This document shows positions 4,412-33,008 of a stretch of DNA of 33,161 bases, piece by piece. The translations under genes were made by a program, and so were the position numbers. The notes beneath the pieces are model-generated. The model was not told the DNA's origin, ran no database searches, and saw only the letters and a program-made list of their open reading frames with translations. Origin of the DNA: Halanaerobium saccharolyticum (GTDB lineage: Bacteria; Bacillota; Halanaerobiia; Halanaerobiales; Halanaerobiaceae); assembly GCF_003053565.1 (NCBI RefSeq), contig NZ_QAXS01000035.1, forward strand, positions 1-33,161, given 5' to 3'. Every line of letters starts with the position of its first letter. Position 1 is the first letter of the stretch.

Positions 4412-5293
4412 TTAATCTGTTAATAACTGCAGAAATTTTTCTGCTGCATTTGATAGTGGAATATTTTTGTTGTTCACAACTGCCAGTTCCCGAGCTGGCA
4501 GTTTTTCTTTTATTTTTATTTCAAATAAATCGTCAGTCTCAAGGTTAAGGCAGTATTCTGGCACAAAGGCAATCCCCAGACCAATTTTAGCCATTTCGAT
4601 TAAAAGATCAACACTACCGAGTTCAATTGCCGCAGTAATTTCTGTGCCCATTTCAGCTAATAAGCTGTCCAAAAATTTACGGGTGGTTGTTTTGGGCTCG
4701 AGCATTAAAAGGGGGTAGTTTTTAAGCATTTTCAGAGAATGCTGCTGCTCTTTTATCTCCTCAAACTCATTACCTGCAATAAAGATATCATTAAAGCTAT
4801 ATATTTTTTGGACCTTCATTTCTTCAGTTATTTTAGGGTTAGGTAGATTACTGATAATTAGATCAACTTTATTCTGCTGCAGCAGTTCAATACAGGTGCT
4901 GGAAGTTCTATTGGTAATTTGAATCTGAATTTCGGGATAAAGCTGGTGAAACTTATTTAAATAAGGCAGCAGAAAGTCTTTGGAGATTGTGTCATTGGCT
5001 CCAATATGGATTTCCCCTCGTTTTAAAGCGTTAATTTCTTTAATGCTTTCTTCGCCGCTTGCTATTAGATTAAAAGCCGGTTCTATATGCTCAAATAGTA
5101 TTTTGCCCGCCTTAGTCAGCTTAACTTTTTTGGTGCTGCGAATAAAGAGCTCGGTATTCAGCTCATTTTCCAGGTTCTTAATATTCTGGCTTACTGCTGA
5201 CTGAGAGATATATAGTTTTTTAGCCGCCTGAGAAAAACTTAAATTATCGGCAACCTGATAAAAGACTTTATATAAATCATAATTCAAGGCCAT
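4412..5293 (-). CDS. LysR-family transcriptional regulator
   Basis: This 293-residue regulator has a typical LysR layout. A winged helix-turn-helix occupies the first ~60 residues (FYQVADNLSFSQAAKKLYISQSAVSQ and the conserved NLE.EL...LF.R). A linker helix follows, then a two-lobed periplasmic-binding-protein-like effector domain (GEIHIGANDTI, KVDLIISNLP, and GLGIAFVPEYCL). It starts at ATG 5293 behind AAGGAG. The ligand cannot be told from sequence. It diverges from purL across 446 bases that contain the 277-bp palindromic element, so the classic 'regulates its divergent neighbour' guess is weak here. It converges on deoB with almost no gap. Confidence 0.92.
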   Translation of the reverse strand: MALNYDLYKVFYQVADNLSFSQAAKKLYISQSAVSQNIKNLENELNTELFIRSTKKVKLTKAGKILFEHIEPAFNLIASGEESIKEINALKRGEIHIGANDTISKDFLLPYLNKFHQLYPEIQIQITNRTSSTCIELLQQNKVDLIISNLPNPKITEEMKVQKIYSFNDIFIAGNEFEEIKEQQHSLKMLKNYPLLMLEPKTTTRKFLDSLLAEMGTEITAAIELGSVDLLIEMAKIGLGIAFVPEYCLNLETDDLFEIKIKEKLPARELAVVNNKNIPLSNAAEKFLQLLTD

Positions 5294-5739
5294 TGATTAA
5301 CTCTCCTTATTAATAGTATTAGTATTATTAATTTTACTTCTTAATTGTATCATTCTATAATTAAATTGCAAGATATTTTTTAGCTATAAGAGTTAATTCG
5401 AAATAAGAAAATTAATATCTATCCAGTAAAAAGTCAAAGAATAACTAAGCTTCATATTTTAATTAAATTAGTCTACCTTCCTGATCACAACCTCCTGTTG
5501 TGCAGTCAGCAAAAAACTTCCTGTTTTTTGAACTAATTTAATTAAAATAATCAACAAGTTATACTAATAACTTTTTAGAGTCACTCATTAATTTTTTTAT
5601 TTAGAATTAACAACTTTAAATTTGAAAATATCTTGCAATTGAAGTATGAATGCTGACGAATGAGGATTAAGTGGAAACTTATTTTTAAATTAATCATCGC
5701 AAAATAAAGAGGAAAATATTTTAAAAAGGGGCGCTAAAA
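5294..5739. other. Intergenic region between LysR gene and purL
   Basis: This 446-bp gap contains no believable gene. Positions 5364-5640 are a nested palindromic element (described separately). Positions 5294-5363 must hold the LysR-gene promoter and its AAGGAG site. Positions 5641-5739 form the immediate purL leader, in which I see no purine riboswitch core and no clear -35/-10 pair. Confidence 0.7.
5364..5640. repeat. 277-bp nested inverted-repeat element (MITE-like or structured RNA)
   Basis: The outer ends are a perfect 16-bp inverted repeat: AATTGCAAGATATTTT at 5364-5379 and its exact reverse complement at 5625-5640. The innermost ends of the arms are a perfect 18-bp inverted repeat at 5455-5472 and 5532-5549. 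Between them the arms remain recognisably complementary: a 25-base stretch around GTTAATTC has two mismatches, and TAAAAAGT matches exactly. The two arms span 5364-5472 and 5532-5640, each 109 bp. The 59-bp centre carries two further hairpins, CACAAC/GTTGTG and AAAAAAC/GTTTTTT. It encodes no protein. I see no clear target-site duplication. It may be a miniature non-autonomous mobile element or a large RNA hairpin. Confidence 0.7.
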
Positions 5740-8700
5740 GTGGCTGATAAAATCCGAAGAGTTTTTGTTGAAAAAAAAGAAGGTTTTGCTGTTCAGGCTG
5801 AGGAACTGCTGCATGATTTTAGGGAGAGTCTGGGGCTTGAACATTTAGAAGGGTTGAGACTACTTAATCGCTACGACATTACAGATATTTCAGATTCAGC
5901 TTATCAGGAAGCCTGTGCGACAATTCTGGCAGAACTGCCAGTAGATTTAATCTATCAGGAAGATTTTGAAGCAGCAGCTGGGGAAAAAATATTTGCAGTT
6001 GAGTACCTGCCGGGTCAATATGACCAGCGAGCGGATTCTGCTGAGCAGTGTATTCAGATTTTAAATAATGATGAGAAGCCGACTGTTAGGGTGGCCCAGA
6101 TCTTTATTTTAAAGGGAAAGTTGAGCGAAAAGGAAGTTGAAAAAATAAAAGATTATTATATAAATCCAGTTGACTCCAGAGAGGCCAAACTGGAAAAACC
6201 GGAAACTCTTGAGATGCAGTATAAGCTGCCGGAGAAAGTTGATATTATTGATGGTTTTCTTGAAGCAGATGAGGCCGGTCTAAATGAAATTCTGGCTGAA
6301 CTGGGACTGGCAATGAGTATGGCAGATTTAAAACATACCCAGCATTATTTTAGAGATCAGGAAAAACGAAATCCGACAATTACTGAAATCAGAGTGCTGG
6401 ATACTTACTGGTCTGATCACTGCCGTCATACAACTTTTTTGACAAAAATTGAAGATGTAGAAATTGAAGAAAGTGATTTTACCCGGGCAATTAAGGAAAC
6501 ATATCAGGAATATTTGGCCGGTCGTCAAAAAATCTATCAGGGAAAAGAAAAAGACATCTGTTTAATGGATATTGCCCTGATGGGAATGAAAGAACTGCGG
6601 GCAGCTGGAAAGCTAAACGATTTAGAGCTTTCAAATGAAGTAAATGCAGCCAGTATTGAAATTACTGTTGATGTTGACGGCCGGGATGAAGACTGGCTTT
6701 TAATGTTTAAAAACGAAACCCACAATCACCCAACTGAAATAGAACCCTATGGTGGGGCAGCAACCTGTCTTGGAGGAGCTATTAGAGATCCACTTTCCGG
6801 TCGTTCCTATGTTTATCAGGCAATGCGGGTTACAGGGGCAGGAGATCCTCGGACTCCGATTGCAGAAACTTTAGAAGGAAAGCTGCCGCAGAAAAAAATT
6901 GTTCAGGAAGCTTCAGACGGCTACAGTTCTTATGGAAATCAGATTGGTCTGGCAACAGGAATGGTCAATGAAATCTATAACGAGCGCTATCTGGCCAAAC
7001 ATATGGAAATTGGAGCTGTGATAGCTGCTGCACCAAAAGAAAATGTGGTTCGGGGGGAAGCTTTAGCAGGTGATATTGTAGTATTACTTGGTGGAAAAAC
7101 AGGTCGAGATGGCTGTGGAGGAGCAACGGGTTCTTCCAAAGTCCACACCGAAGATTCGATAGAAGAGAGCAGCGCAGAAGTCCAGAAAGGTAATCCACCA
7201 ACAGAAAGAAAAATTCAGCGCCTCTTTCGCAATCCAGAAGTCAGCCGAAAAATTAAGGTCTGCAATGATTTTGGCGCAGGTGGAGTTTCAGTGGCAATTG
7301 GAGAGCTGGCTGATGCCTTAGAGATTGATTTAAATGCTGTACCCAAAAAATATGAGGGTATTGATGGAACAGAACTGGCAATTTCTGAGTCTCAGGAAAG
7401 AATGGCAGTTGTAATTGATGCTCAGGATGTGGATCAATTTATTGAGTTGGCTGCTGAGGAGAATCTGGAGGCAACTGTAGTCGCCGAAGTTAAAGATCAC
7501 CGCCGACTGATTATGGAGTGGAATGGTGATCAAATAGTTAACTTAAGCAGAGATTTCTTAGATACCAATGGAGCAACTCAGAAGACTAAAGTAAAAGTTA
7601 CTGAGCCGGATCCAGAAGAAAATTATTTTAAAAACGCTGCTTTAAAGCGCCTGGATCAAGCAGCAGATCTAAAAGAAAAGTGGTTAGAAAATCTGGCAGA
7701 TATCAATGTAGCCAGTCAGAAGGGTCTTGTCGAAAAATTTGATAGTTCAATTGGTGCCGGAAGTGTGACCATGCCTTTTGGTGGTAAATATCAGCTGACT
7801 CCGACTCAGACTATGACAGCTAAGATTCCATTAGTTGAGGGAGAAACTAATGCCGGTTCAGTGATGAGCCACGGCTATGATTCAAAATTAACGACCTGGA
7901 GTCCTTTTCATGGAGCGCTATATGCAGTTATTGAATCAGTAGCAAAAATTGCAGCGGCTGGTGGAGATTATTCGAAAATTAGATTTACCTTTCAGGAATA
8001 TTTTGAACGCCTGCGGCAGAATCCAGAACGCTGGGGGAAGCCTTTTAGTGCTCTGCTCGGAGCTTATAAAGCACAGAAGGATTTTGGCTTACCGGCAATT
8101 GGTGGTAAAGACAGCATGTCAGGTACTTTCCACGAGATTGATGTACCTCCAACTCTTGTTTCTTTTGCTGTTGATACGGTTAATGTGAATGATATTATTT
8201 CACCAGAATTTAAAGAAGCAGAAAGTCAGCTTGTTTACCTGCCGGCTGAGCGGGGAGAAGATGAGCTGCCCAATATAGAAAAACTTAAGGCTAATTACAG
8301 CCGAGTCAAAGAATTAATTACAAAAAAGAAGATTCAAGCAGCTTCGGCAGTTACAATTGGAGGACTGGCAGAAGCAGTTTCTAAAATGAGCTTTGGCAAC
8401 AAAATTGGAGCAGAAATTACTGCTGAATTGAGTCCAGGAGAGTTATTTTCACCTGAATATGGGGCCTTAATCCTGGAGCTGGATTCTCAGGCAGAAGTTG
8501 AAAAACTGTTTGAGGGCCTCGACTACAGAGTAATCGGGAAAACTACAGCAGAAGAAACTTTAAAAATTAAAGAAATAGAGATTCCACTGACAGAAGCCTT
8601 AAAAAGCTGGCAGCAGCCGCTGGAAAAAGTATATAAAACTGATGTGCCTGAAGATGAAATTAAAGATTTGAGATCACCTAAATTAGAAAAAGAACTGTTG

Positions 8701-9558
8701 AATTTAAAAAGCTGCAGCAGAGAGAAATCTTTTAATTCAAAAATACAGATTGCCAGACCTAAGGTGTTCATTCCAGTTTTCCCGGGAACGAACTGTGAAT
8801 ATGACACTGCAAGACAGTTTAGAGAAGCAGGGGCAGATATTGAAACCTTTATCTTCAAAAATCTGGAGCCAGAACAGATAGAAAAATCAATTGCAGAAAT
8901 GACAGCAAAAATAGAACAATCTCAAATCATAGCAATCCCTGGAGGCTTTAGTGCCGGTGATGAGCCCGACGGTTCAGGTAAATTTATTGCCACGGTCTTT
9001 AGAAACCCGGAGATTAAAGAAGCAGTTATGAGCTTATTAAATAATCGGGATGGATTGATGCTTGGTATCTGTAACGGCTTTCAGGCGCTGGTTAAACTCG
9101 GACTATTGCCCTATGGAGAAATTAGAGAGCTGAGTGAAGATTCTCCAACTTTAACTTACAATACTATTGGCCGTCATGTTTCACAGATGGTAAATACCAG
9201 AATTGTTTCCAATAATTCTCCCTGGTTGAGCAATCTCAAGGTAGGAGATATTCACTCGATTCCAGTTTCTCACGGGGAGGGAAGATTTGTTGCTTCCCCT
9301 GAAATGATCAGAGAACTAGAAAAAAATGGGCAAATCGTGACTCAATATGTTGATCTTAAAGGTAAGCCAACAATGGAGATACCCTATAATCCTAATGGTT
9401 CTCTGGCAGCTGTGGAAGGAATCTGCAGTCCAGACGGCAGAGTTTTAGGCAAGATGGGACATTCTGAACGGATCGGGAGAAATGTAGCTAAAAATATTAT
9501 CGGTAAAAAAGATCAGATGCTCTTTAAAGCTGGAGTAGATTATTTTAAACAGAAATAG
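5740..9558 (+). CDS. purL: Phosphoribosylformylglycinamidine synthase, single-chain PurL
   Basis: This 1272-residue enzyme carries out the ATP- and glutamine-dependent conversion of FGAR to FGAM, step four of de novo purine synthesis. It is the long single-chain form, with the PurS-like N-terminus, two AIR-synthase-like catalytic halves and a C-terminal class I glutamine amidotransferase in one polypeptide. Visible motifs include LDTYWSDHCRHTTF, FKNETHNHPTEIEPYGGAATCLGG, DFGAGGVSVAIGELAD and IGGKDSMSGTF. The amidotransferase begins near residue 1007. Its Cys nucleophile is in GICNGFQAL (about residue 1111) and its His/Glu pair is in MGHSER (about 1241/1243). It starts at GTG 5740 after AAAGGGG. 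No other pur gene is adjacent. The stop codon TAG is the first triplet of a 62-bp repeat. Confidence 0.97.
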   Translation: MADKIRRVFVEKKEGFAVQAEELLHDFRESLGLEHLEGLRLLNRYDITDISDSAYQEACATILAELPVDLIYQEDFEAAAGEKIFAVEYLPGQYDQRADSAEQCIQILNNDEKPTVRVAQIFILKGKLSEKEVEKIKDYYINPVDSREAKLEKPETLEMQYKLPEKVDIIDGFLEADEAGLNEILAELGLAMSMADLKHTQHYFRDQEKRNPTITEIRVLDTYWSDHCRHTTFLTKIEDVEIEESDFTRAIKETYQEYLAGRQKIYQGKEKDICLMDIALMGMKELRAAGKLNDLELSNEVNAASIEITVDVDGRDEDWLLMFKNETHNHPTEIEPYGGAATCLGGAIRDPLSGRSYVYQAMRVTGAGDPRTPIAETLEGKLPQKKIVQEASDGYSSYGNQIGLATGMVNEIYNERYLAKHMEIGAVIAAAPKENVVRGEALAGDIVVLLGGKTGRDGCGGATGSSKVHTEDSIEESSAEVQKGNPPTERKIQRLFRNPEVSRKIKVCNDFGAGGVSVAIGELADALEIDLNAVPKKYEGIDGTELAISESQERMAVVIDAQDVDQFIELAAEENLEATVVAEVKDHRRLIMEWNGDQIVNLSRDFLDTNGATQKTKVKVTEPDPEENYFKNAALKRLDQAADLKEKWLENLADINVASQKGLVEKFDSSIGAGSVTMPFGGKYQLTPTQTMTAKIPLVEGETNAGSVMSHGYDSKLTTWSPFHGALYAVIESVAKIAAAGGDYSKIRFTFQEYFERLRQNPERWGKPFSALLGAYKAQKDFGLPAIGGKDSMSGTFHEIDVPPTLVSFAVDTVNVNDIISPEFKEAESQLVYLPAERGEDELPNIEKLKANYSRVKELITKKKIQAASAVTIGGLAEAVSKMSFGNKIGAEITAELSPGELFSPEYGALILELDSQAEVEKLFEGLDYRVIGKTTAEETLKIKEIEIPLTEALKSWQQPLEKVYKTDVPEDEIKDLRSPKLEKELLNLKSCSREKSFNSKIQIARPKVFIPVFPGTNCEYDTARQFREAGADIETFIFKNLEPEQIEKSIAEMTAKIEQSQIIAIPGGFSAGDEPDGSGKFIATVFRNPEIKEAVMSLLNNRDGLMLGICNGFQALVKLGLLPYGEIRELSEDSPTLTYNTIGRHVSQMVNTRIVSNNSPWLSNLKVGDIHSIPVSHGEGRFVASPEMIRELEKNGQIVTQYVDLKGKPTMEIPYNPNGSLAAVEGICSPDGRVLGKMGHSERIGRNVAKNIIGKKDQMLFKAGVDYFKQK

Positions 9559-24443: not shown

Positions 24444-24863
24444 ATGAATCTCAAAAATATAGAACATATAGGTATTGCCGTTGATAATCTGGAAGAGGCT
24501 CTGAGTTTTTATCAGGACATTTTGGGCTTGGAATTACTTAAAAGAGAAATTGTTGAATCACAGGCAGTTAAAATTGCATTTTTAAAAGTTGGAGAGACAA
24601 AGATTGAGCTGCTTGAAGCCTTAAATAAAGAGAGTGCTATTGCCAGATTTATCGAAAAAAACGGTGAGGGGATTCACCATTTCGCAATTTTAGTCGACAG
24701 CATTGAAGATAAGATAAAAGCGATGCAGGCTCAAGGAGCCAGATTAATAGGTGATAAGGCAACTGCTGGTGCAGACAATATGAAAATTATTTTTGTTCAT
24801 CCACAAAGTACTAATGGAGTCTTATTAGAGTTATGTGAACCACTTGCTAAGGAGGAAAAATAA
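24444..24863 (+). CDS. mce: Methylmalonyl-CoA epimerase
   Basis: This 139-residue VOC-fold enzyme interconverts the R and S forms of methylmalonyl-CoA. The family metal and acid residues are visible: His in NIEHIGIAVDNLEEALSFY, Glu in TKIELLEAL, His-His in GIHHFAILVD and Glu in GVLLELCEP. KIIFVHPQSTNGVL is characteristic of the MCE branch rather than general glyoxalases. It starts at ATG 24444 behind AAAGGAGGGGG. Its stop overlaps the start of mmdA by one base (TAATG), so translation is coupled to the enzyme that uses its product. Confidence 0.95.
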   Translation: MNLKNIEHIGIAVDNLEEALSFYQDILGLELLKREIVESQAVKIAFLKVGETKIELLEALNKESAIARFIEKNGEGIHHFAILVDSIEDKIKAMQAQGARLIGDKATAGADNMKIIFVHPQSTNGVLLELCEPLAKEEK

Positions 24864-26413
24864 TGTCAGTAGAAGATAAGGAAAAGTTGTTAGAAGATAA
24901 AAAAGAGACGATTCGTCAGGGTGGCGGCCAGGCAAGAATCGAAAAACAGCACAAAAAAAATAAAAAAACCGCCAGAGAGAGAATTGAATATCTGCTTGAT
25001 GACGGCTCATTTAATGAATTAAATATGTTTGTAGAAAACCGCAGTATTTCACTGGGGATGGACGAAAAAGAAGTTCCAGGCGAGGGTGTTGTGGTTGGTT
25101 ATGGTACTATTGAAGGCCGTTTGGTTTATGTTTACGCTCAGGACTTCACAGTAATGGGAGGTTCAGTTGGAGAAGCCCATGCGCAGAAGATTTCTGAGGT
25201 AATGGATTTGGCTGTTAAAAATGGTGCCCCGATTATTGGGCTTAATGATTCCGGTGGAGCCCGTATCAATGAGGGTATAGATTCTTTAAACGGATATGGA
25301 GAAATTTTCTACCGCAATACCAAGGCTTCAGGTGTGGTGCCCCAGATTACAGCAATCTTAGGTCCCTGTGCTGGTGGAGCAGTTTATTCTCCGGCAATTA
25401 CAGATTTTATTTTTATGGTTGACCAGACTTCTAAAATGTTTATTACCGGTCCCAGTGTAATTAAATCTGTAACTGGAGAAGAAGTTTCAGCTGAAGAGCT
25501 GGGAGGAGCAATGACTCATAATCAGGTTAGTGGAGTTGCTCACTTTATGGAAGACAACGAAGAGGCCGCTCTGGATAATATCAGAAGATTATTAGCTTAC
25601 ATACCTGATAATTATAAAGAAGAGCCTGAAAAATTGGATATTCAGGATGAAGCAGGACGCAGTACCGAAGAACTTAAAGAGATTGTTAAAGAAAATCCGC
25701 AAAAAGCTTATGATGTGAGAGATGTAATTGATATTCTGGCAGATAAAGATAGTTTTATGGAGGTTCAGCCATATTTTGCTCAAAATGCAGTAATTGGTTT
25801 TGCCAGGTTAAATGGGCGCAGTGTTGGTATTGTAGCCAATCAACCTCAGCATCTGGCAGGGTGTCTAAATATTGATGCCTCAACCAAAATTGCACGTTTT
25901 ATCCGCTTTTTAGACAGCTTCAATATTCCAATTGTTTCACTGGTTGATGTTCCAGGTTATATGCCGGGTACTGAACAGGAATATGGAGGAGTAATCCGTC
26001 ATGGTGCAAAGGTATTATATGCATATTCGGAAGCCACTGTACCAAAGATTACTCTAATTATGCGGAAAGCATATGGTGGAGCTTATATTGCAATGGGCAG
26101 TCGTTCTGTAAGAGCTGATCTTGTTTATGCCTGGCCGATAGCAGAAATTGCAGTTATGGGTCCAGAAGGTGCTGCTAATGTAATTTATCGCAAGGAAATT
26201 GCTAAAGCAGATGATCCCGATCAGCTGCGTCAGGATAAAATTGATGAATATAAAGATAATTTTGCCAACCCTTATATTGCAGCCAAAAGGGGAATGGTTA
26301 ATGATGTGATAAAAATGGAAGAGACACGGGCTAAACTGATTAATGGTTTAGAGATGATGATCAATAAAAGAGAAGATGGACAGGATAAAAAGCACGGAAA
26401 TATTCCTTTATAA
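24863..26413 (+). CDS. mmdA: Methylmalonyl-CoA decarboxylase alpha (carboxyltransferase) subunit
   Basis: This 516-residue carboxyltransferase removes CO2 from S-methylmalonyl-CoA and loads it on biotin. Both crotonase-like halves are present: TARERIEYLLDDGSF, LNDSGGARINEGIDSL, GPCAGGAVYSPAITDF and FITGPSVIKSVTGEEV in the first; VDVPGYMPGTEQEYGG, HGAKVLYAYSEATVPK and KAYGGAYIAMGS in the second. The sequence is also close to propionyl-CoA carboxylase beta. No biotin carboxylase gene is present and the membrane beta subunit gene follows, so the Na+-pumping decarboxylase role is favoured. It starts at ATG 24863 behind AAGGAGG. It acts at the cytoplasmic face, bound to the membrane complex. Confidence 0.95.
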   Translation: MSVEDKEKLLEDKKETIRQGGGQARIEKQHKKNKKTARERIEYLLDDGSFNELNMFVENRSISLGMDEKEVPGEGVVVGYGTIEGRLVYVYAQDFTVMGGSVGEAHAQKISEVMDLAVKNGAPIIGLNDSGGARINEGIDSLNGYGEIFYRNTKASGVVPQITAILGPCAGGAVYSPAITDFIFMVDQTSKMFITGPSVIKSVTGEEVSAEELGGAMTHNQVSGVAHFMEDNEEAALDNIRRLLAYIPDNYKEEPEKLDIQDEAGRSTEELKEIVKENPQKAYDVRDVIDILADKDSFMEVQPYFAQNAVIGFARLNGRSVGIVANQPQHLAGCLNIDASTKIARFIRFLDSFNIPIVSLVDVPGYMPGTEQEYGGVIRHGAKVLYAYSEATVPKITLIMRKAYGGAYIAMGSRSVRADLVYAWPIAEIAVMGPEGAANVIYRKEIAKADDPDQLRQDKIDEYKDNFANPYIAAKRGMVNDVIKMEETRAKLINGLEMMINKREDGQDKKHGNIPL

Positions 26414-26428
26414 TAAGTGGGTGAGAAT

Positions 26429-26749
26429 ATGAATAATTATGTTCTTGGTCTGGAATTATTAATAATTGGAATGGGAACAGTGTTCCTTTCCCTCTATTTA
26501 CTTTCAGTTTTTCTCTATTTTAGTGGAAAACTTTTCGGACCAGAAAATAAGAAGAAAAAGCAAACAGAAGTTAAAACAGAAAAGGTTGAAATCGCAGAAA
26601 AAAATCGAGAAACTGAAGCAGAAATGCAGACGGGTGTTTCTGCCAAAAAAGTCGCAGCAGTTTCTGCAGCAGTTTATGAGCTGTTAAATGATCAAAAAAA
26701 GTACAGGATAATTTCTATTCAAAAAAGTAATCAAAACTGGAAAAGATAG
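26429..26749 (+). CDS. mmdD: Methylmalonyl-CoA decarboxylase delta subunit (OadG-like)
   Basis: This protein of about 106 residues has one N-terminal membrane helix (LGLELLIIGMGTVFLSLYLLSVFLYF). A highly charged Lys/Glu linker and a small C-terminal segment (KKVAAVSAAVYELLNDQKKYRIISIQK) follow. This is the layout of the OadG/MmdD small subunit, which anchors the carboxyltransferase and biotin protein to the membrane subunit. The GTG at 26417 precedes the GTGGGTGAG ribosome region, so ATG 26429 is preferred. It sits between mmdA and the biotin carrier gene as in Veillonella mmd operons. Confidence 0.88.
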   Translation: MNNYVLGLELLIIGMGTVFLSLYLLSVFLYFSGKLFGPENKKKKQTEVKTEKVEIAEKNRETEAEMQTGVSAKKVAAVSAAVYELLNDQKKYRIISIQKSNQNWKR

Positions 26750-26763
26750 GAGCTGAATATAGA

Positions 26764-27186
26764 ATGAAAAAATTTAGAGTTGAGGTAGATGGTGAAGAAT
26801 TTATTGTAAATGTTGAGGAAATTGGAAGCGAGGATTCTGCTGGAACTACAGTTAGTACTAACACTAATGCTGGCAGCAGTCAAAGAACAAAGACAAAAAG
26901 AACTGTTAAAAAAGCTGCTCCTAAACCTAAAAAAGAGCCGCAGCAAGAAATGTCTGCCCCAGCTGAAGCTGGTGAGGGTGATGTTGTAGCTCCAATGCCT
27001 GGTAGTATTTTAGAAATTAATGTTAAAAAAGGTGACAGTGTGAACAAAGGTGATCTATTAGTTGTTCTGGAAGCAATGAAAATGGAAAATGAAATAACTG
27101 CTGTTCAGGCTGGAACTGTTAAAGATATTAAAGTTCGAGTTGGAGATAGTGTTGATGCAGAAGACATACTGCTGGTAATTGAGTAG
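26764..27186 (+). CDS. mmdC: Methylmalonyl-CoA decarboxylase gamma subunit (biotin carrier)
   Basis: This 140-residue biotin carrier protein shuttles CO2 from the alpha to the beta subunit. Residues 1-20 form a small N-terminal piece (KKFRVEVDGEEFIVNVEEI). A Thr/Ser- and Lys/Pro-rich flexible linker follows to about 70, then the biotinyl domain. The biotin lysine is K106 in VLEAMKMENEI, and APMPGSILEINVKKGD marks the first strand. It starts at ATG 26764 behind AGGAG. mmdB follows by 11 bases. Confidence 0.95.
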   Translation: MKKFRVEVDGEEFIVNVEEIGSEDSAGTTVSTNTNAGSSQRTKTKRTVKKAAPKPKKEPQQEMSAPAEAGEGDVVAPMPGSILEINVKKGDSVNKGDLLVVLEAMKMENEITAVQAGTVKDIKVRVGDSVDAEDILLVIE

Positions 27187-27197
27187 GGGGTTAAATC

Positions 27198-28328
27198 ATG
27201 TTAGATAAGATCTCACTATTTGTCCAGTCTACGGGTTATTTAAATCTGGAGCTGGGACAATTTATAATGATCATTGTAGCCTCCATACTTCTTTATCTGG
27301 CTGTAGTCAAAGAGTATGAGCCACTACTTTTAGTACCAATTAGTTTTGGTATGCTCTTAGTAAATCTTCCTTTAGGAGGTTTAATGGCAGCTGGGAAAGA
27401 TGGTCAGGTAGGAGGATTACTTTACTATCTTTATCAGGGAGTTAAACTCGGTATTTATCCCCCGATAATTTTTATGGGAGTTGGAGCCTGGACTGATTTT
27501 GGTCCAATGATAGCCCAACCTAAAACTGCACTTTTAGGTGCAGCAGCCCAGTTCGGTATTTTTGCTACAATTTTTGGTGCAATTGCACTCGGCTTCTCAC
27601 CTGCAGAAGCTGGTGCAGTTGGAATTATTGGAGGTGCTGATGGTCCAACAGCAATTTTTTCTGCCAGTCAGCTGGCACCACATCTGCTTGGCCCAATTGC
27701 AGTAGCCGCCTATTCTTATATGGCTTTGGTGCCGATTATTCAGCCGCCAATCATGAAGGCTTTAACTACCAAAGAGGAACGTCAGGTTAAAATGGAGCAG
27801 CTAAGACATGTAACTAAAAAGGAAAAGATAATTTTCCCGGTTGCTGTTACCTTACTTGGTGGTCTGCTGGTTCCTTCTGCACTGCCTCTTTTGGGAAGTT
27901 TAATGTTTGGTAATTTAATGCGGGAAGTTGGAGTTGTAGATCGTTTACTTAAAACTACTCAGAATGCTCTGATGAATATTGTTACTCTGTTTTTAGGTTT
28001 GACAGTTGGAGCAACAGCAAGTGCAGAGGCCTTTTTAAATGCTCAAACTATTGGGATTCTGGTTTTAGGCCTGGTTGCCTTCAGCTTTGGTACAGCAGTA
28101 GGAGTCTTATTTGGTAAGCTGATGTACAAGTTCAGTGGAGGTAAGGTTAACCCACTAATTGGAGCAGCAGGAGTGTCTGCAGTACCGATGGCAGCTCGAG
28201 TAGTGCAGAAGGTTGGCCAGGAAGAAAATCCATCCAATCACCTCTTGATGCATGCTATGGGGCCAAATTTTGCCGGAGTTATTGGATCTGCAATTGCAGC
28301 CGGTACTTTACTGTCAATACTCGGCTAG
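27198..28328 (+). CDS. mmdB: Methylmalonyl-CoA decarboxylase beta subunit, Na+ pump
   Basis: This 376-residue integral membrane protein of the OadB/MmdB/GcdB family couples release of CO2 from carboxybiotin to Na+ export. About nine or more hydrophobic segments are visible. The key ion-binding Asp lies in [11 protein letters not shown] (D148), matching the essential Asp of OadB. The second conserved region, [18 protein letters not shown], carries the functional Ser and Arg. The N-terminus ([18 protein letters not shown]) is usual for the family. It starts at ATG 27198 behind GGGGG. It ends the mmdADCB block, and a strong hairpin follows it. Confidence 0.95.
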
Positions 28329-28353
28329 AATTATTATATTTAAATAACATAAA

Positions 28354-28389
28354 AAAATTAGGCCAGCAGTGAGAACTGCCGGCTTAATT
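28354..28389 (+). terminator. Strong hairpin after mmdB, terminator-like without a T-tail
   Basis: AAATTAGGCC (28354-28363) pairs with GGCTTAATTT (28380-28389) with one wobble, and GCAGT pairs with ACTGC around GAGA. The tail is only AATTT, so it may stabilise the mmd message or terminate partially. Confidence 0.55.
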
Positions 28390-28544
28390 TAAAACTTAAT
28401 AAGTCAGAAAATTTAAAAAATAAATTTATTTTTATTTCAAATAAGATTTTTTTGTATTTAAAAAAGCAGCGAGTATCGAGCAGCTGGCTTCATCTCCGCC
28501 TGAATCCAGGCAGAAAATTAAAATTATTTATGAGGAGTGAAAAT

Positions 28545-28751
28545 ATGGCCAGAGGTGAGAGAATACAAATTGCACATCCAGGCTGGTGTAAGAACTGTGG
28601 TATCTGTGTATCAGTCTGCCCGACTGATATTTTAATCACCGGCAAAAAGAGTGTTGAGATTCTTGATTTAGAAAAATGTATTGGCTGTCATAATTGTGAA
28701 CTGATCTGTCCTGATTTTGTACTAAAGGTGGTGGCAAATGATGAAAACTAA
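28545..28751 (+). CDS. korD: 2-oxoglutarate:ferredoxin oxidoreductase delta (ferredoxin) subunit
   Basis: This 68-residue protein carries two [4Fe-4S] motifs: CKNCGICVSVCP and CIGCHNCELICPD. It passes electrons from the TPP-containing core to ferredoxin. The frame is open back to 28452, but the good site TGAGGAGTG (28531-28539) fits only ATG 28545, giving the standard N-terminus. The upstream stretch is much more GC-rich than its surroundings and looks like leader RNA. It overlaps korA by 14 bases, so the four kor genes form a tightly coupled set. Confidence 0.92.
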   Translation: MARGERIQIAHPGWCKNCGICVSVCPTDILITGKKSVEILDLEKCIGCHNCELICPDFVLKVVANDEN

Positions 28752-29901
28752 GATATTCAGACCCGAAAAAAGAGCTGTACTTATTCAGGGTGATCAGGCA
28801 GTTGTAGAAGGAGCTCTGGCAGCAGGTGTAGAATTTTTTGCTGGTTATCCAATTACTCCAGCCTCTGAAATTGCCGAAGGTTTTGCCAGAGAGCTGCCGA
28901 AAATTGGAGGTAAATTTCTGCAGATGGAAGATGAAATTGCGGGGATGGCAGCAGTAGTAGGTGCTTCCCTGGCAGGAAAAAAAGCAATTACAGCCACCAG
29001 TGGACCCGGTTTCGCTTTAAAACAGGAAAATTTGGGCTTTGCAACTATGGTTGAAGCACCAGTGGTTGTAGTTAATGTTCAGAGAGTTGGTCCCTCAACT
29101 GGACTGCCAACTTCTCCTTCTCAGGGAGATGTAATGCAGGCCCGCTGGGGAAGAAATGGGGATCAGGAAATTATAGCCCTGGCACCTGCCTCGGTAACCG
29201 AAAGCTATGAACTAACAATTAAGGCTGTAAACTTAAGTGAGAAATTTAGACAGCCAGTTGTTCTAATGCTTGATGAAGTTATCGGTCATCTCAGAGAAAA
29301 AATATATTTAAGTACCAGTGATGAGATTGAAATTATTGATAGAAAAAGACCTGCGGCTGATCAGGATCCAGATCAGTATCTACCCTATCAGCTGACAGAT
29401 GATCTGATTCCTCCTATGGCGGATTATGGTAGTGGTTTAAAGTATCATACAAGTGGACTCTTTCATGATCAGAGTGGTTTCCCGGACGGAAAAAATGAGA
29501 CTGCTAAACTAATGCAGGATCGCCTGCATAACAAACTGCATAATAATCTTGATCAAATAATTCTTTATCAAAAAGATATTAGAAAAGATGATCGGGTGGC
29601 TGTCTTAAGTTACGGTTCAGCAGCCAGAACAGCGATTAGTGCTGTGAATACAGGACGAAAAGATAACCTTAAAGCAGGCTGGTTTAAGCTGCAGACAATC
29701 TGGCCTTTTGCAGAAAAAGAAGTTGCAGAACTTGCGGCTCAGGTTGAAACAATTATTGTCCCCGAATTAAACCAGGGGCAGCTGATCAGAGAGGTTAAAA
29801 GAGCAGCTGCCGGTCAGGCTAAAGTTTTAGGTATAAATTCTTATGCAGGAGAATTGATTAAACCAGAAGAAATCAGGGCACTGCTGGAGGAGGTATTATA
29901 A
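28738..29901 (+). CDS. korA: 2-oxoglutarate:ferredoxin oxidoreductase alpha subunit
   Basis: This 387-residue subunit of the 2-oxoacid:ferredoxin oxidoreductase supplies the pyrimidine-facing half of the TPP site. Hallmarks are GDQAVVEGALAAGVEFFAGYPITPASEIAEGF, then QMEDEIAGMAAVVGASLAGKKAITATSGPGF. GPSTGLPTSPSQGDVMQARWGRNGD is diagnostic of the 2-oxoglutarate (KorA) rather than pyruvate branch. The start is ATG 28738 or 28741, overlapping korD; AAAGGTGG lies upstream. The preference for 2-oxoglutarate is an inference supported by the mutase gene downstream, since the product succinyl-CoA feeds it. Confidence 0.93.
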   Translation: MMKTKIFRPEKRAVLIQGDQAVVEGALAAGVEFFAGYPITPASEIAEGFARELPKIGGKFLQMEDEIAGMAAVVGASLAGKKAITATSGPGFALKQENLGFATMVEAPVVVVNVQRVGPSTGLPTSPSQGDVMQARWGRNGDQEIIALAPASVTESYELTIKAVNLSEKFRQPVVLMLDEVIGHLREKIYLSTSDEIEIIDRKRPAADQDPDQYLPYQLTDDLIPPMADYGSGLKYHTSGLFHDQSGFPDGKNETAKLMQDRLHNKLHNNLDQIILYQKDIRKDDRVAVLSYGSAARTAISAVNTGRKDNLKAGWFKLQTIWPFAEKEVAELAAQVETIIVPELNQGQLIREVKRAAAGQAKVLGINSYAGELIKPEEIRALLEEVL

Positions 29902-30725
29902 TGGATTTTGAAAAATACTTAAGGATGGATAAACTGCCCCATATCTGGTGTCCGGGCTGTGGTCACGGGACGATTCTAAATTCATTTATTAGAGCCTTTG
30001 CCGAGAGTGACTTTGACCAGGATAAAACGGTGGTTATTTCGGGTATTGGTTGTTCAGGTAGGGCCACCGGTTATCTTAATTTTGATACCCTGCACACAAC
30101 CCACGGCAGGGCAATTGCCTTTGCCACAGGGGTAAAAATGGCCAACCCAGAATTAAATGTGATTGTAATGACTGGTGATGGTGATGGCTCAGCAATTGGA
30201 GGTAATCATTTGATACATGCAGCCCGTCGTAATATTGATCTGACTGTAATCTTATTTAATAATCAAATTTATGGCATGACAGGCGGGCAGTTTTCCCCAA
30301 TGACTCCTACAGGTGATCTGGCATCCACTGCTCCCTATGGTAATATTGATCAGAACTTTAATCTGGCAGAACTGGTAGCAGGAGCAGGAGGAACTTTTAT
30401 TGCTCGGGGAGCTACTTTTGACCCCAGGCAGCTGAAAAAATTATATCTTGCTGCTTTAAAACATAAGGGGTTTTCTTTTGTAGAAAGCCTTTCACAGTGC
30501 CCGGTTAGTTATGGCCGGCAGAATAAAGCTGGGGATGCAGTTGAAATGTTAAAAAAACAGGAAGAAGATACAATCAACTTTAAAAAGTGGCAGCAGCTTA
30601 GTACTGAAGAGAAAAAGCTTAAGTATCCACTTGGAATATTAAAAGAGCTTGATAATCCAGAGAGTGAATATACAGTGCGCTACCAGAAAATAATAGAGCA
30701 GGTCAATAATGAGGGGGCTTTATAA
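29901..30725 (+). CDS. korB: 2-oxoglutarate:ferredoxin oxidoreductase beta subunit
   Basis: This 274-residue subunit binds TPP and a nearby cluster. IWCPGCGHGTIL has the Cys residues and the TPP diphosphate region. GIGCSGRATGYLNFDTLHTTHGRAIAFATGVKMANP and MTGDGDGSAIGGNHLIHAARRN carry the GDG...N metal/TPP motif. NNQIYGMTGGQFSPMTP is typical of KorB. The ATG overlaps the korA stop by one base (TAATG), as does the next junction. Confidence 0.95.
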   Translation: MDFEKYLRMDKLPHIWCPGCGHGTILNSFIRAFAESDFDQDKTVVISGIGCSGRATGYLNFDTLHTTHGRAIAFATGVKMANPELNVIVMTGDGDGSAIGGNHLIHAARRNIDLTVILFNNQIYGMTGGQFSPMTPTGDLASTAPYGNIDQNFNLAELVAGAGGTFIARGATFDPRQLKKLYLAALKHKGFSFVESLSQCPVSYGRQNKAGDAVEMLKKQEEDTINFKKWQQLSTEEKKLKYPLGILKELDNPESEYTVRYQKIIEQVNNEGAL

Positions 30726-31297
30726 TGGGAAGATATGAAATCAGATTAAGTGGTGCTGGGGGCCAGGGTATGATTCTGGCAGGAATTATACTGGCAGAGG
30801 CTGGAGTTATGGTTGATAATTTAAATATCAGTCAGAGTCAGTCTTATGGGCCTGAATCCAGGGGGGGTGCCAGTAGAGCTGAGGTAGTTTTTGATGAGGA
30901 TCAGATAGATTTTCCAAAAGTAATTAAACCTGATCTTTTAGTCTGTTTAACCCAGGAGTCCTTTGATCAGTATGGAGCAGACCTTAAAAGCTATGGCGTG
31001 ATAATTGCTGACAGCGGTATTGACATTTCTGAGGTCAAGCCGGAATTTAAAGATAATATCTACCAGTTAAACATTCTTGATCTTGCTGCCAAGGAAATTG
31101 GAAATGAAATTTCAGCTAATATGATTGTTTTAGGGATAATAGCCAGAATTATTCAGACCAGGATTCCAGTGGAATTTATCAAAAAGGCAATTATTGAAAA
31201 GGTTCCACCTAAAACTGTAGATTTAAATATAGAGGCTTTTGAATTGGGTTTCGACTTAAAACTCGATAAAAGGAGCTATATTTATGGGAGAATATAA
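30725..31297 (+). CDS. korC: 2-oxoglutarate:ferredoxin oxidoreductase gamma subunit
   Basis: This 190-residue gamma subunit has the family signature [21 protein letters not shown]. The conserved [19 protein letters not shown] follows, then [12 protein letters not shown]. It completes the four-subunit Kor complex that turns 2-oxoglutarate, CoA and oxidised ferredoxin into succinyl-CoA, CO2 and reduced ferredoxin. The ATG at 30725 overlaps the korB stop. Its own 3' end overlaps the mutase gene by 14 bases, tying succinyl-CoA production to the enzyme that rearranges it. Confidence 0.95.
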
Positions 31298-33008
31298 TAA
31301 TCAGCAGCAGGGAGATAGAGAAATTTCGGATGCCGGGGATGCTGAAAATTTAAATCAGGCTGAAGAAAAATGGGAAACTGAGCAATATCAGAAAACGGCG
31401 GAGCGTTTTGGCTTAAGAAAAGATAATTTTATTTCGGATGCTGAATCTGAAATTAAACCCCTTTATACACCTCTAGACCTTAAAAATCTTGATTACCAAA
31501 AGACGCTCTCATTTCCAGGGGAGTTTCCTTTTACCAGAGGTGTTTATCCGACAATGTATCGGTCTCGACTCTGGACAATGAGGCAGTATTCTGGTTTTGG
31601 AACAGCAGTAGAAACTAATAAGCGCTTCAAATATCTTTTAGAACAGGGGCAGACCGGCCTTAGTGTTGCCTTTGATCTGCCTACCCAAATTGGATATGAT
31701 TCAGATCATCCTCTGGCCGAAGGGGAAGTGGAAGTGGGAAGAGTTGGAGTGGCAATTGACAGTGTAGAGGATATGAAAATTCTTTTTTCTGAGATACATC
31801 TTAATAAAGTCAGCACTTCGATGACAATTAACGCTCCAGCTGCAGCTGTTTTAGCGATGTATATTGTAACAGCAGAAGAAAAGGGGATTTCTCCAGATCA
31901 GTTGAGCGGAACAGTTCAGAATGATATCTTAAAAGAATATATAGCTCGGGGCACTTATATTTATCCTCCCGAGCCCTCTTTGAGGTTGATTACAGATGTT
32001 TTTGATTACTGCTCCCGTAAGATGCCGGCATTTAATACCATCAGCATCAGCGGTTATCATATTCGGGAAGCTGGTTCAACAGCAGTTCAGGAGCTGGCCT
32101 TTACCTTAGCTGATGCCATCTGTTATGTAGAAAGAGCCCTAGAGATCGGCCTGGATATTGATGATTTCGCTCCGCGGCTTTCCTTTTTCTTTGCTTCTCA
32201 GATGAATTTGATTGAAGAAACTGCAAAATTTAGAGCAGCCCGGCGTCTCTGGGCTGAAATAATGGAAGCAAGATTTGGAGCAGAAAATAAAAAATCAAAG
32301 CTGATGCGCTTTCATACCCAGACAGCAGGGACAGCACTCACAGCAAATCAGCCTTTAAACAATATAATCCGAGTTACAATTCAGGCCCTGGCAGCAGTTA
32401 TGGGAGGGACTCAATCTCTGCACACCAACTCCTATGATGAAGCACTTTCTTTACCTTCAGAAGAGGCGGTTGAGATTGCTTTAAGAACTCAGCAGATAAT
32501 TGCTGAAGAAAGTGGAATTGCTGATGTTATCGATCCCCTGGGCGGTTCTTATTATTTAGAAGAATTAACCGATTCATTTGTTAAAAAATGTCGTAAATAT
32601 TTAAAGAAGATTGATCAGCTTGGGGGAATGGTTGAAGCAATTAAAGCAGGATATGTCCAGCGAGAAATTCAGGATAGTGCCTATCAAAAACAAAAAGAAA
32701 TTGATCAAAAAAAGAAAATAGTTGTTGGAGTCAATAAATATCAAAATAATAATAACAGTACAGAAACAGAGCTGCATCAGCTTGATCCTGCCCTGGAAGA
32801 AGCTCAGAAAGAAAAGTTGAAAAAATTAAAAGCCAGCAGAGATCAAAAAGAACTTAAAAAAGCTTTAGCAGAGCTTAAATCTGTTGCGGAAAGTGAAAAA
32901 AATATGATGCCAGTGATTATCGAAGCAGTTAAAGCCAGAGCCACCTTAGGTGAAATCAGTGATCAGCTAAGAGAGGTCTTTGGGGAGTATCAAAATAGAA
33001 ATATTTAA
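31284..33008 (+). CDS. Methylmalonyl-CoA mutase, large catalytic subunit
   Basis: This 574-residue subunit is the TIM-barrel substrate-binding half of adenosylcobalamin-dependent methylmalonyl-CoA mutase, without its own B12 domain. Motifs in order are [44 protein letters not shown] and [11 protein letters not shown]. Then come [26 protein letters not shown], the long [17 protein letters not shown] and [18 protein letters not shown]. Tyr102 (RQYSGF) and Arg222 (ARGTYIYPP) match the Tyr/Arg pair of methylmalonyl-CoA mutases, where isobutyryl-CoA mutases have Phe/Gln; His259 is the catalytic His. Residues 1-35 and the tail after about 490 are charged and variable. It starts at ATG 31284 behind AAAGGAG, inside korC. 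Confidence 0.95.

Follow-up and report, generated by a model that had tools for sequence, protein, structure and literature searches.

The 446-nt gap between a lysR-type gene and purL in Halanaerobium saccharolyticum is largely taken up by a 277-nt palindrome, which raises the question of whether this structure is a mobile element, a structured RNA, or a site that acts as folded DNA. All three possibilities had been put forward in the original prediction, which was made from the letters of the window, i.e., the whole 33,161-nucleotide stretch of contig NZ_QAXS01000035.1 analyzed here. Its description of the palindrome proved accurate: two 109-bp arms surround a 59-nt center, the 16-bp inverted ends and the 18-bp inner inverted repeat are both perfect, and no open reading frame (ORF) of 100 aa or more overlaps the structure (Table 1). 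It is also, as claimed, far beyond chance: no shuffle of either strand folds equally well, with z scores against shuffles of -11.9 and -10.4 for the two strands folded as RNA, the check proposed for the stem, and -12.1 for the palindrome folded as DNA. The arms are 75% identical to each other, and the palindrome is the strongest inverted repeat of the window. It runs further out than had been noted, to approximately positions 5350 and 5654, and its center itself consists of two GC-richer hairpins. Elsewhere in the window, positions 24863 to 33008 are an ordinary region of the propionate/succinate pathway, a cluster of genes for a carboxyl transferase, a decarboxylase beta subunit, and a methylmalonyl-CoA mutase that has MeaB on its upstream side.

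Table 1. Features of the palindrome and its flanks (window positions; strand given where assigned)
Feature	Position	Strand	Basis
LysR-type regulator gene, flank	4412..5293	-	
LysR promoter-like site TTGCAA-16-TACAAT; surroundings conserved in element-free relatives	5344..5371	-	
Entire imperfect palindrome with outward extension	5350..5654		Inverted-repeat and fold analysis
Left 16-bp inverted end, perfect; host sequence, overlapping the conserved LysR -35 region	5364..5379		
Outer helix, 5' arm (partner 5587-5611)	5392..5416		
Conserved 142-nt core, matched by models R1 and R2	5431..5572	+	
Inner helix, 5' arm (partner 5532-5549)	5455..5472		
Apical hairpin 1; loop motif CCTCCTG at 5491-5497	5481..5509	+	
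Apical hairpin 2; loop motif CTTCCTG at 5517-5523, 26 nt from hairpin 1 motif	5510..5530	+	
Inner helix, 3' arm (partner 5455-5472)	5532..5549		
Outer helix, 3' arm (partner 5392-5416)	5587..5611		
Right perfect 16-bp inverted end; in inverted copy of LysR promoter region (~5625-5653)	5625..5640		
purL, flank	5740..9558	+	

A similarity search of the same genome returned two weaker relatives of the palindrome, and other members of the genus carry both orthologous and nonorthologous copies; in all these first copies the core is exactly 142 nt long. A covariance model built from nine copies detected 8 diverged copies in this genome, up to 12 in one congener, and the element in 15 of the 38 genomes of the order. 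With a second model, built from 50 copies, it was found in 17 of 398 genomes sampled across the phylum, GC-rich ones included, with core lengths almost always between 139 and 145 nt; per-genome copy numbers from this search are “at least” values, as no more than 8 candidates were scored in each genome. The core pattern is also present in “Candidatus Frackibacter sp. WG13” and in a Halanaerobiales metagenome-assembled genome. A single copy, conserved only at the same site, had been expected to favor a fixed regulatory element; several species do have the copy fixed at a single site, but eight copies are present in this genome. As judged from these comparisons, the palindrome is one old member of a dispersed family of noncoding hairpins found in many Halanaerobiales and related genomes. 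The family is apparently new to description: we found no earlier account of it in the open-licence literature, and no Rfam family matches the element, chance-level hits aside.

The copies share a common architecture, in which a long stem with conserved internal loops carries two apical hairpins with CNTCSTG loops 26 nt apart. The outermost layer is the outer stem, followed in this genus by an internal loop that is TCCA-like on the left and AAGTCA-like on the right. Inside it, a stem built around AATAACT/AGTTATT leads to a second internal loop (AAGNTTCAT / ATTCATCAAG), which is followed by a 12- to 18-bp stem and finally by the two apical hairpins. Genome G005 has two complete, differing cores head to tail in the gap between a CaxA-like gene and rho (L087, 5001-5142 and 5185-5326). 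In genome G038, a copy is adjoined by a purine riboswitch above the Rfam threshold and by a guanidine-I-like match just under the threshold (L299, 945-1123). An origin from phages or plasmids was rejected: plasmid sequences gave no match to the element, phage sequences gave one weak 70-base match, and a search of viral contigs with one core pattern came back empty.

Some genomes contain about 40 to 80 near-identical copies with terminal repeats. In G013, a member of a different genus, about 40 copies are almost identical and sharply bounded (AGGAGTTTCCCC ... GGGGAAAGTC), several of them flanked by apparent 8- to 10-bp direct repeats, e.g., TAAATAAAAT, TAAACTAA, and TAAAAATTGT, as read by eye. 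These recent copies avoid ORFs, and their orientation is near random (the upstream gene is co-oriented in 19 of 35 cases). In G147, a 19-bp terminal sequence was hit 81 times in forward and 79 times in reverse orientation; many of the copies are 220-bp units, others are shorter with internal deletions, and target duplications are not clear-cut. G039 and “Candidatus Frackibacter” WG13 are further high-copy carriers. Given the high copy number with terminal repeats and the apparent duplications in one genome, the family includes mobile MITE-like elements: they are short (less than about 500 bp) and noncoding, occur in multiple dispersed copies, and have empty sites, with element-free species found at three resident sites. 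The ends of the element also occur without the hairpin, as mini-elements of about 50 bp in G013 (L216 and the right flank of the L113 copy), and G147 has 43- to 113-bp derivatives that resemble these. In the approximately 220 kb of G147 inspected, no enzyme gene lies between terminal repeats; an autonomous copy was rejected there, as the long repeat pairs enclose ordinary genes such as argS. Derivation of the ends from the ISL3 family, suggested by GGASTTTCCCCA, was rejected as well, since in this order the elements of that family have GGCTCTTCGCTA or GGTTCTTTGACAAA-like repeats at their termini.

The copy at purL has a different kind of ends. In a comparison of the lysR-purL gap in 12 congeners, the element was found in four species (G000, G001, G003, and G004) and a remnant of its left part in G006, with no hairpin in the gap of G005, G008, G009, G002, G007, G010, or G011. 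Little weight is given to G003 because it is a contaminated bin (7%), in which some contigs are nearly identical to G000 and others clearly divergent. This distribution marks the purL copy as an old resident of its site. The sequence at its left outer end, TATAATTAAATTGCAAG, belongs to the LysR promoter region and is also found in hairpin-free species, exact in G005 and G008 and altered in G009 and G011; therefore, it is the right outer end that is the copy. The -35 box of the minus-strand promoter-like site falls within the palindrome arm. Read in this way, the 16-bp “terminal repeats” of the purL copy are the LysR -35 region and its inverted copy, not transposon ends. The proposal of a MITE-like element is thus borne out for the family, in which there are many almost identical copies bearing terminal repeats, empty sites, and, in one relative, apparent target duplications, but not for the purL copy, which has neither terminal inverted repeats of its own nor a recognizable target duplication.

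Inverted copies of host sequence were found at other sites, too. The right arm of the purC/purF element is an inverted copy of the 3' coding end of purC in G001, G004, and G013, i.e., in two genera; at an amidohydrolase gene, the right arm has an inverted copy of about 45 nt of the coding end, and at eda, of the last codons and the stop. Element-free species show that the left side is the original sequence at such sites; in these cases, copying is from the left flank into the right arm. Filtering may account for part of this direction, since a gene or promoter on the left has to be preserved. The scores of random pairs in the inverted-copy comparison were inflated by the inclusion of orthologous partners. 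At an aminopeptidase/PNP site, G004 has an intact element versus a 3-nt gap in G005 and element remnants in G000, G001, and G009. At the eda, purC, and CheV-like sites, an intact element is followed by the right half of an older one. Between ftsY and ylxM (L079 and L088), the left arm has a near-consensus ylxM promoter (TTGACA-17-TATACT), a portion of which recurs inverted in the right arm. The G013 purC/purF element (L108, 13840-13981) has a close match in a remnant of a right half that G004 and G001 carry (L240 and L245), and purC is also unusually similar between these genomes, a resemblance that probably reflects gene transfer between genera.

The pairing of the arms is strongly conserved. 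In the core alignment, 89.1% of cells are paired (62.6% in shuffles), and the covariation score is 0.646, compared with 0.182 in shuffles and no more than 0.13 for slid structures; the pair counts lean toward structure, since the RNA model was fitted to copies found by similarity. The four orthologues at the purL site show six two-sided changes, one of which has a T.T intermediate (5465/5539 reads A-T, T.T, A-T, and T-A). Paired helix changes, as expected of a structured RNA, are therefore present. Selection on RNA is expected to favor G.U over A.C, and no such tolerance was seen in the helices. G.T and A.C mispairs number 218 and 225 over all arms, 22 and 31 among isolated mispairs, and 34 and 35 in the core alignment with two conserved T.G columns left out; a tRNA control gave 46 G.U and no A.C but is weak, as ARAGORN may omit A.C mispairs. 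The equal frequency of the two mispairs suggests that pairing is kept by a process or constraint acting on DNA. Arm pairing thus appears to be maintained at the DNA level, most likely by fold-back template switching rather than by selection on RNA.

These counts bear directly on the proposal that the palindrome is a structured RNA, co-transcribed with its neighbors and serving as a regulatory, stabilizing, or RNase III-processed double-stranded RNA. We consider this unlikely. The very stable fold, the strong covariation, the slow change of the core, and the location of 10 of the 13 sites in this genus just 3' of co-oriented genes would all suit an RNA, but G.U is not in excess over A.C and Rfam offers no match, so that selection for the RNA stem suggested in the original prediction is not supported. 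Moreover, the purL copy sits between divergent genes, neither a terminator nor a strong new promoter was found at this element, and the recent G013 copies are oriented almost at random to their neighbors. A more specific candidate, a CsrA-sponge RNA, was rejected: loops on the minus strand look like ACAGGAGGU, yet CACGA takes its place in many copies, which thus fail the GGA requirement.

The core also changes slowly. At the purL site, it is 87 to 92% identical between species versus 75 to 78% nucleotide identity for lysR and purL, and in the same comparison agreement at fourfold sites is 40 to 46%. The core is thus far slower than fourfold sites and is not drifting freely. This tells against a plain MITE relic, a nonautonomous leftover of an insertion sequence that has been neither maintained nor functional since insertion, as do the paired changes at the purL site that went on after the species split. 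The high-copy relatives with their terminal repeats and apparent target duplications, the truncated remnants, and the element-free alleles at several sites are what such a relic would leave behind; however, the outer repeats of the purL copy are host sequence, the ISL3-family ends in the order differ from those of the element, and no enzyme-bearing copy was seen in the inspected part of G147. This already disfavored explanation is, in our estimate, quite unlikely.

Slow change, together with conserved loops at fixed spacing and equal G.T and A.C mispairs, which fit a constraint acting alike on both strands, could instead point to a cruciform or folded single-strand site that is under selection as DNA, binds a host protein, and acts on the lysR and purL promoters or on chromosome structure. 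The LysR -35 box inside the outer arm agrees with such a role. However, the element is lost or truncated in G005, G006, and G008 and absent in others at the purL site, and is therefore dispensable there; besides, no binding protein is known, and the extension of arms into coding sequence is left unexplained. We regard this possibility as distinctly improbable.

At some sites, the cores do not follow the genes. At the tyrS site, the G001 and G005 cores are 98.6% identical versus 72.8% for G001 and G004, and the genes say the opposite; between ylxM and ftsY, approximately 395 bp of palindrome are identical in G000 and G005, with flanking genes about 88% identical. Core types that depart from the gene tree suggest same-site lateral exchange or, alternatively, loss of alternate tandem copies combined with strong constraint. 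One could imagine a homing-like element that passes from one species to the same chromosomal site in another in the form of folded single-stranded DNA, with self-primed copying of the left flank providing a locus-specific guide arm: the incoming folded element would be joined to the left flank and prime copying of that flank into the right arm. This would explain the discordant tyrS types, the identical stretch at ylxM-ftsY, and right arms that copy the left flank, but we see it as a long shot.

The explanation that we consider probable is that the purL palindrome is a resident noncoding hairpin DNA element of a MITE-like family, whose arms are maintained by template switching. DNA polymerase would stall at the hairpin, and the new strand would fold back and use the 5' arm, together with some adjoining host sequence, as the template for the 3' arm, repairing and lengthening the palindrome with no need for an RNA product. 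This copying step, which we infer from its end products and not from an observed event, would account for both stem correction and host sequence in the arm. Template switching alone is challenged by the loop motifs, which are conserved phylum-wide although loops would be expected to decay; given the conserved loops and the slow core, selection or lateral exchange must act besides it. The added factor may be a requirement for folded DNA, exerted through a putative mobilizing or DNA-binding protein, and, alternatively or additionally, repeated lateral resupply at the same site. As a whole, the family consists of MITE-like hairpins whose folded-DNA core is conserved and whose arms are copied from host sequence.

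Several known systems resemble this family in part. Like prokaryotic MITEs such as the Coxiella element QMITE2 (reviewed in PMC10969869), the element is short, noncoding, AT-rich, intergenic, and stem-loop forming, reaches high copy numbers in some genomes, and in G013 has terminal repeats and apparent short target duplications. However, its 142-nt inner architecture is conserved across a phylum with paired changes, host genes or promoters, copied in inverted orientation, lengthen the arms of resident copies, and no parent insertion sequence was found among the ISL3 ends compared and the G147 sequence inspected. The ERIC, YPAL, and bcr1 families (listed in PMC2267715) are likewise intergenic repeats of about 100 to 170 bp that form long stem-loops, and the enzymes that disperse them are unknown or borrowed; going by their descriptions, they belong to single species or groups, whereas the element occurs across many families and carries a pair of apical hairpins with the CNTCSTG motif. 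REP and REPIN elements, associated with Y1 (RAYT) transposases (PMC3116915, PMC3733652), are also dispersed, palindromic, and thought to act as folded DNA, but a REP is defined as a 20- to 40-bp palindrome ending in GTAG or CGTC (PMC3733652), and the 142-nt core with its other conserved motifs has neither that size nor that tag. In quasipalindrome template switching (PMC7202029, PMC8794818), fold-back copying corrects and extends imperfect palindromes with the 5' arm as the template; stem extension and 5'-to-3' correction have been described for intrastrand switching (PMC8794818). That is known as a mutational process, whereas here it would act repeatedly on one family and copy up to about 50 nt of gene sequence.

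If this explanation is correct, the catalogues of RNAs and insertion sequences have overlooked a widespread class of noncoding hairpins that is present in Halanaerobiales and other lineages. It would also provide a natural system of many sites in many species for measuring how palindromes are built and kept up by template switching. Strong covariation, commonly read as proof of a functional RNA, could then arise at the DNA level, and the equality of G.T and A.C mispairs would offer a simple test for others to apply.
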